Positions 8,915 through 9,094 of a DNA stretch of 64,000 bases are shown here, piece by piece. The stretch comes from Halarcobacter sp. Lineage in GTDB: Bacteria > Campylobacterota > Campylobacteria > Campylobacterales > Arcobacteraceae. The stretch lies in assembly GCF_963676935.1 (NCBI RefSeq), contig NZ_OY781470.1, positions 496,001 to 560,000 of the forward strand, written 5' to 3'. Within the stretch, counting starts at the first letter, position 1; the number at the start of each line of letters is the position of its first letter. The translations under genes were made by a program, and so were the position numbers. The notes under the pieces were generated by a model. The model was given only the letters and a program-made list of their open reading frames with translations. It had not been told where the DNA came from and did not search any database.

Positions 8915-8952
8915 AAAAAAAGGGAAAAGATTTCAAACCTTTTCCCTTTTTT
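8915..8952 (-). terminator. Strong intrinsic terminator of the small minus-strand transcript
   Basis: Read on the minus strand, an A-rich run is followed by GGGAAAAG, a 9-nt loop, CTTTTCCC and seven Ts. The 8-bp stem with a T7 tail is a textbook rho-independent terminator. On the plus strand the same element ends in six Ts. It lies between the 12-codon ORF at 9020-9058 and the cysteine-cluster gene, so it could end a short RNA or act as an attenuator for the downstream gene. Confidence 0.85.
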
Positions 8953-9019
8953 AAATTATTTTGTAAATAAAACCTATATTTACAAATCTACTAGATAGTA
9001 AATTTATTGATAAATTTCA

Positions 9020-9058
9020 TTAAATTTTAACAATACCAAAAAGTGATTTTTTTCTCAT
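9020..9058 (-). CDS. Putative 12-residue peptide ORF with strong ribosome binding site
   Basis: ATG (9058-9056) opens a 12-codon frame encoding MRKKSLFGIVKI, closed by TAA (9022-9020). It is preceded by GGAGGTG (9068-9062), one of the strongest Shine-Dalgarno sequences in the window, at correct spacing, and by a TATAAT box (9094-9089). The transcript would end at the terminator 8915-8952, about 170 nt in all. The peptide is cationic at its start and hydrophobic after. It could be a leader peptide, a small membrane-active peptide, or the coding part of a dual-function small RNA. Translation is not proven. Confidence 0.45.
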   Translation of the reverse strand: MRKKSLFGIVKI

Positions 9059-9088
9059 TTACACCTCCATATTGTTTATGTTAAATGT

Positions 9089-9094
9089 ATTATA
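9089..9094 (-). promoter_or_regulatory. -10 box of the small minus-strand transcript
   Basis: ATTATA on the plus strand reads TATAAT on the minus strand, about 30 bp upstream of the 12-codon ORF. The -35 region (TTACTT, 9112-9117) is weak, which is usual for promoters of this phylum. Confidence 0.55.

Follow-up and report, generated by a model that had tools for sequence, protein, structure and literature searches.

A structured small RNA family of the Arcobacteraceae keeps the translation signals of a mini-ORF while its peptide drifts

The window (the whole 64-kb stretch of Halarcobacter DNA analysed here) carries a complete tiny minus-strand unit, upstream of and co-directional with a cysteine-cluster gene (PF03692, YkgJ-like). 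A sequence-only reading had described it as a TATAAT box, a GGAGGTG Shine-Dalgarno (SD) sequence, an ATG opening a 12-codon frame and a terminator, and our analysis confirms each part in its place. The parts are listed below; of the predicted sRNA, the 5' end is inferred from the −10 element and the 3' end from the terminator.

9094-9089, minus strand: −10 promoter element TATAAT, read from the sequence
9083-8915, minus strand: whole predicted sRNA, ~168 nt
9076-9029, minus strand: hairpin H1, with arms AACAATAT (9076-9069) and GTATTGTT (9036-9029)
9068-9062, minus strand: SD sequence GGAGGTG, a 7-bp match to the 16S rRNA 3' end
9058-9056, minus strand: start codon ATG, likewise read from the sequence
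9058-9020, minus strand: mini-ORF from ATG to TAA, 12 codons, peptide MRKKSLFGIVKI, the TAA ending at 9020
9003-8986, minus strand: hairpin H2, with arms ATTTACT (9003-8997) and AGTAGAT (8992-8986)
8985-8961, minus strand: hairpin H3, with arms TTGTAAATA (8985-8977) and TATTTACAA (8969-8961)
8952-8915, minus strand: intrinsic terminator H4, a 17-pair stem (8952-8916) and a run of seven T (8921-8915)

With both strands counted, the 64 kb contain GGAGGTG just twice, which bears out the claim that so near-perfect an SD is rare in this window; GGAGG followed by ATG after 4-8 nt occurs only three times. For the predicted 172-nt strand the folding energy is −42.2 kcal/mol; its shuffled counterparts average −23.4, and none of 200 folds as well (z −5.85). 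H1 encloses the SD, the start codon and most of the mini-ORF, and the U-run facing the SD pairs weakly with GGAGG. Elsewhere in this neighborhood, between groEL and the cysteine-cluster gene, the window encodes a transpeptidase-domain protein (PF00905; 7235-7999) of class D beta-lactamase size; the other loci compared showed none in this position.

Searched at the DNA level, 60 relatives gave strong matches in each of the 15 remaining genomes of the genus and in genera beyond it; several genomes had two copies, and in an alignment of 23 copies both GGAGGTG and ATG were invariant. A covariance model (R1) found the unit throughout the genus (16 of 16 genomes), once in the window's own genome, and altogether in 54 of 104 family genomes and 11 of 20 genera, with at most two copies in each. 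The strong conservation in every genome of the genus shows that the combination is not due to chance. When a broader model (R2) was applied to samples of the order (399 genomes) and the phylum (150 genomes), matches came from Arcobacteraceae only, with stricter filters that very weak relatives could escape; elsewhere in Campylobacterales there was no credible match. The 5' pattern was also met in named records of Arcobacter, Aliarcobacter and Poseidonibacter, alongside some unrelated matches due to chance.

Existing catalogues did not account for the unit. Rfam 15 gave no match in the window at the gathering threshold, and matches with E values up to 10 were sub-threshold and chance-like, falling mostly on the terminator. 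No tRNA or tmRNA was found, searches for a mobile origin gave no plasmid match and no viral-contig match (the viral contigs being searched by pattern), and in the literature searched on Arcobacter small RNAs we found nothing on this sRNA. It is a real, apparently uncatalogued, Arcobacteraceae-wide family of structured RNAs. The sRNA often lies near groEL and suhB, with immediate neighbors that vary, and this proximity suggests vertical inheritance. Hfq was found in none of the 104 family genomes, control genomes being positive; the sRNA is apparently a hallmark of the Arcobacteraceae as a whole, a family without Hfq in which small RNAs have received little description.

Some details of the distribution deserve mention in their own right. 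Several genomes carry two copies at different sites: G001 (L033/L006), G002 (L008/L032), G004 (L005/L031), G017 (L014/L034) and G117 (L087/L099); in some two-copy genomes the mini-peptides differ between the copies, as with MTKDYHF and MTRRTFT in one of them. In genus g11 the sRNA is present in some species and missing from others, mostly those with smaller genomes (~1.9-2.4 Mb), a patchiness that suggests loss. A marginal match (E 0.045) in another genus, on the minus strand of genome G029 (L110:1400-1630), carries the full anatomy of SD, 7-codon frame (MIGLLQW) and terminator, and has a post-stop insertion in common with L094; it looks like a genuine, divergent 64th member.

The predicted pairing is well supported across members. 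In the 63-member alignment A3, which was fitted to the model and hence leans toward it, 93.8% of H1-H3 cells are paired, against 37-50% in slid controls, 0 of 500 shuffles reach the observed values, and 18 of the 24 pairs show changes on both sides; in the MAFFT alignment A2, which was not fitted to the model, the paired share is 91.7%, and it drops to 38-50% with slid partners. Compensatory changes occur in all seven pairs of H2 (alignment A3) and all nine of H3, and RNAalifold predicted both hairpins de novo on alignments A1 and A3. For H1, 91% of cells are paired over the 63 members, with both-side changes in two pairs; its covariation support is weaker because it varies mainly by G-U compatible changes. 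The first RNAalifold runs missed H1, which was afterwards tested by name, and this miss was probably due to a shift of the 5' arm in some members. Judged from these pairings, the transcript is very likely a structured RNA.

Signals for transcription are conserved along with the fold. The −10 element is an exact TATAAT in 46 of the 63 members and a close variant in the rest, with AAACAAT following at a constant distance of 10-11 nt in most, and farther upstream an A/T-rich pattern, TTTAA(t)TaAAAAgaTGT, is kept. At the other end, a hairpin with a T-run stands at the same place in the members, its sequence variable. Thermodynamic folds of all 63 members put the mean unpaired probability of the SD at 0.15, so that it would be mostly paired, its partner in the folds inspected being the U-rich strand of H1; in the same folds the start codon is about half accessible.

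The start region is kept with great strictness. The SD matches the 16S 3' end perfectly over 6-8 nt in 62 of the 63 members, and where its register has shifted in some lineages (GGAGGTG to AGGAGGT, and also AGGAGGTG) the complementarity to 16S is retained. All 63 have a start codon behind a purine-rich SD, ATG in 60 and TTG in the same place in three, at a spacing from the SD of 5 nt in 59 and 4 nt in four. The length of the frame is likewise restricted, with 7 codons in 41 members, 12 in 17 and otherwise 6, 13 or 15, where the lengths of a control frame with the same start range widely, between 1 and 38 codons. Part of this tightness at the ORF end may derive from the conserved 3' arm of H1 or the neighboring sequence. 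The codon-8 stop is exchanged between TAG and TAA among members, and the indels of L098 and L099 offset one another and leave the frame at 7 codons, a length that L094 and L110 also retain though their post-stop insertion shifts the H1 arm away.

The peptide itself behaves otherwise. Among the 7-codon forms are MTKVSHF and MTKDFHF, and in a substitution test the changes were no more conservative than random (P 0.37 for 7 codons and 0.62 for 12 codons, from few codons and with low power), the other two frames scoring higher than that of the mini-ORF. No purifying selection on the amino acids was seen, though weak selection might escape a test on so short a frame, and MRKKSLFGIVKI would therefore be only the version found here of a frame whose amino acids drift. 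The sequence-only reading would have SD, ATG and peptide alike conserved in relatives; the SD and start codon are kept, but the length and sequence of the peptide are the least conserved part. These patterns favor the view that selection acts on the engagement of ribosomes and on keeping a short frame rather than on a peptide, and the mini-ORF is likely translated.

Other explanations must be weighed against this one. The RNA might be a micro-mRNA or dual-function RNA whose product is the 7-12 aa peptide itself, acting as a signalling, regulatory or membrane peptide. Conservation of SD, start codon and ORF length would suit such a role, as would the M-T-K/R-x-x-H-F flavor common to several distant members and the existence of functional peptides as short as the 7-aa microcin C and the 15-aa SpfP (PMC11955535). 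Yet the substitution test lends no support to a peptide under selection, the 12-mers of the window clade and of g11 have diverged, and L003 is frame-shifted and still keeps SD and ATG; we rate a peptide product as rather unlikely. The earlier suggestion of a membrane-active peptide in particular fits poorly with members mostly of just 7 codons and with the lack of any constraint found at the amino-acid level. That of a dual-function small RNA comes close to our preferred reading and differs from it in one point: what is conserved seems to be translation as such, not the peptide. A different proposal makes the translation incidental and has the G-rich element of H1 pair, as a sponge or antisense partner, with a C/U-rich sRNA or mRNA. 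The element is nearly invariant, and CjNC110, the closest analogue in the phylum, uses an SD-bearing loop in this way (PMC10470494), but pairing of this kind leaves unexplained the invariant start at fixed spacing, the exchange of TTG and ATG and the retention of ORF length, and we hold it to be quite unlikely.

A protein target for the same element, with GGA motifs in the hairpin loop titrating CsrA, is suggested by a GGA within the hairpin of nearly all members and an ANGGA in many of them. Only 39 of the 63 have ANGGA at the SD, however, against the 62 with anti-SD complementarity, and there is usually one site per RNA; with ANGGA not conserved, the CsrA sponge was rejected as very improbable. 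The sequence-only reading had also offered a leader peptide for the downstream gene, and indeed the order in the window (promoter, mini-ORF, hairpins, terminator, same-strand gene) is what a leader peptide and attenuator for the YkgJ-like gene would show. Across the family, a leader role is excluded because the downstream genes vary, being convergent in 41 of 62 loci and of varied kinds in the rest, and because the YkgJ-like gene is found on the upstream side of the sRNA in several relatives; a terminator moreover intervenes. The ykgJ leader was thus rejected by synteny, a role specific to the window would need read-through RNA into 8865-8277, and we give this reading hardly any credence at all.

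What the computations establish is a conserved structured RNA with promoter and terminator signals of its own, in which SD, start and ORF length are kept and the peptide drifts. On balance we lean toward a stand-alone, Hfq-independent structured sRNA in which ribosome engagement with the mini-ORF, and not the peptide, is what is selected, and in which this engagement would probably protect or switch the RNA. An sRNA of ~160-170 nt would be made from its own sigma-70-type promoter and end at its own terminator. H1 would act as a gated ribosome-binding site, its near-perfect SD partly masked by the U-run, on which 30S subunits or ribosomes could load, opening the hairpin briefly; the ribosome would then translate 7-12 codons and halt at or just past the 3' arm of H1. 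By analogy, such engagement would most likely shield the 5' end from 5'-3' decay, switch the RNA between H1-closed and H1-open forms, or do both. The sRNA would thereby report or depend on translation status, and the H2/H3 body would be the likely effector, acting in trans on putative targets without Hfq. More tentatively, we suggest the stricter possibility that function needs translation of a mini-ORF of fixed length whose amino acids are immaterial, coupling ribosome availability to RNA stability or to the exposure of regulatory parts; this remains short of an even prospect. The family amounts to a natural experiment: the start signal and ORF length are preserved and the peptide drifts, and it therefore offers a direct test of whether the act of translation, apart from its product, can be the selected function of an sRNA.

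The nearest comparison is with CjNC110 (CJnc110) of thermophilic Campylobacter, whose mini-ORFs CJsORF23/24, of 10 and 15 aa, were shown by Ribo-seq and western blot to be translated (PMC11955535). Its AAGGAG loop pairs with CUCCUU of CjNC140 in C. jejuni (PMC10470494). Both are small intergenic RNAs of the same phylum working without Hfq, with mini-ORFs and an SD-like element (AAGGAG in CjNC110) in the first stem-loop. CjNC110, however, sits after luxS, where the present sRNA does not (the luxS of its own genome is at C1:152279 and the sRNA at C1:504960), and has a conserved, Met/Cys-rich first peptide (MKLMCQMCNI-like) as well as a second SD and ORF. R2 gave no credible match at 28 luxS loci, and on 40 genomes of one Campylobacter-type genus its best E value was 0.41, neither weak match having an SD or mini-ORF. 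Homology was rejected after comparison of the post-luxS region in several genomes, with no match in sequence or structure; the present sRNA works somewhat like CjNC110 but is not a member of its family. As an observation on CjNC110 itself, its region downstream of luxS (L176, L178, L181, L184 and L186) encodes MKLMCQMCNI or a variant of it, a conserved mini-peptide rich in Met and Cys. In most of these five loci an inverted repeat and another SD with its mini-ORF come next, and L181 and L186 continue with a MetE-like gene (PF08267 was tested for L186). That region resembles a leader that senses an amino acid in methionine metabolism, and it may bear on the part in the activated methyl cycle that has been reported for CjNC110.

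More distant systems each share part of the anatomy. In FourU RNA thermometers a U-run pairs with the SD and controls a full downstream gene; in the predicted folds of the present sRNA a U-run also faces the SD in a hairpin, pairing weakly, but there is no controlled downstream gene and no Rfam match. The Stab-SD stabilizers of the Bacillus cry and hbs mRNAs are strong SDs close to the 5' end, where bound ribosomes have been proposed to stop decay from that end. The present anatomy, with its strong SD near the predicted 5' end, would be compatible with such a function, although Stab-SDs are 5' parts of mRNAs, and that of cry needs no start codon, whereas here a small RNA conserves both start codon and ORF length. 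Spot 42/SpfP and SgrS/SgrT are enterobacterial dual-function sRNAs (PMC11955535). Like the present sRNA, they stand alone with their own promoter, terminator and short ORF, but they are base-pairing RNAs that depend on Hfq and encode longer, conserved peptides, where here Hfq is absent and the peptide is not conserved. Among small RNAs with a mini-ORF, the family described here stands out in that its translation signals are conserved and its peptide is not.
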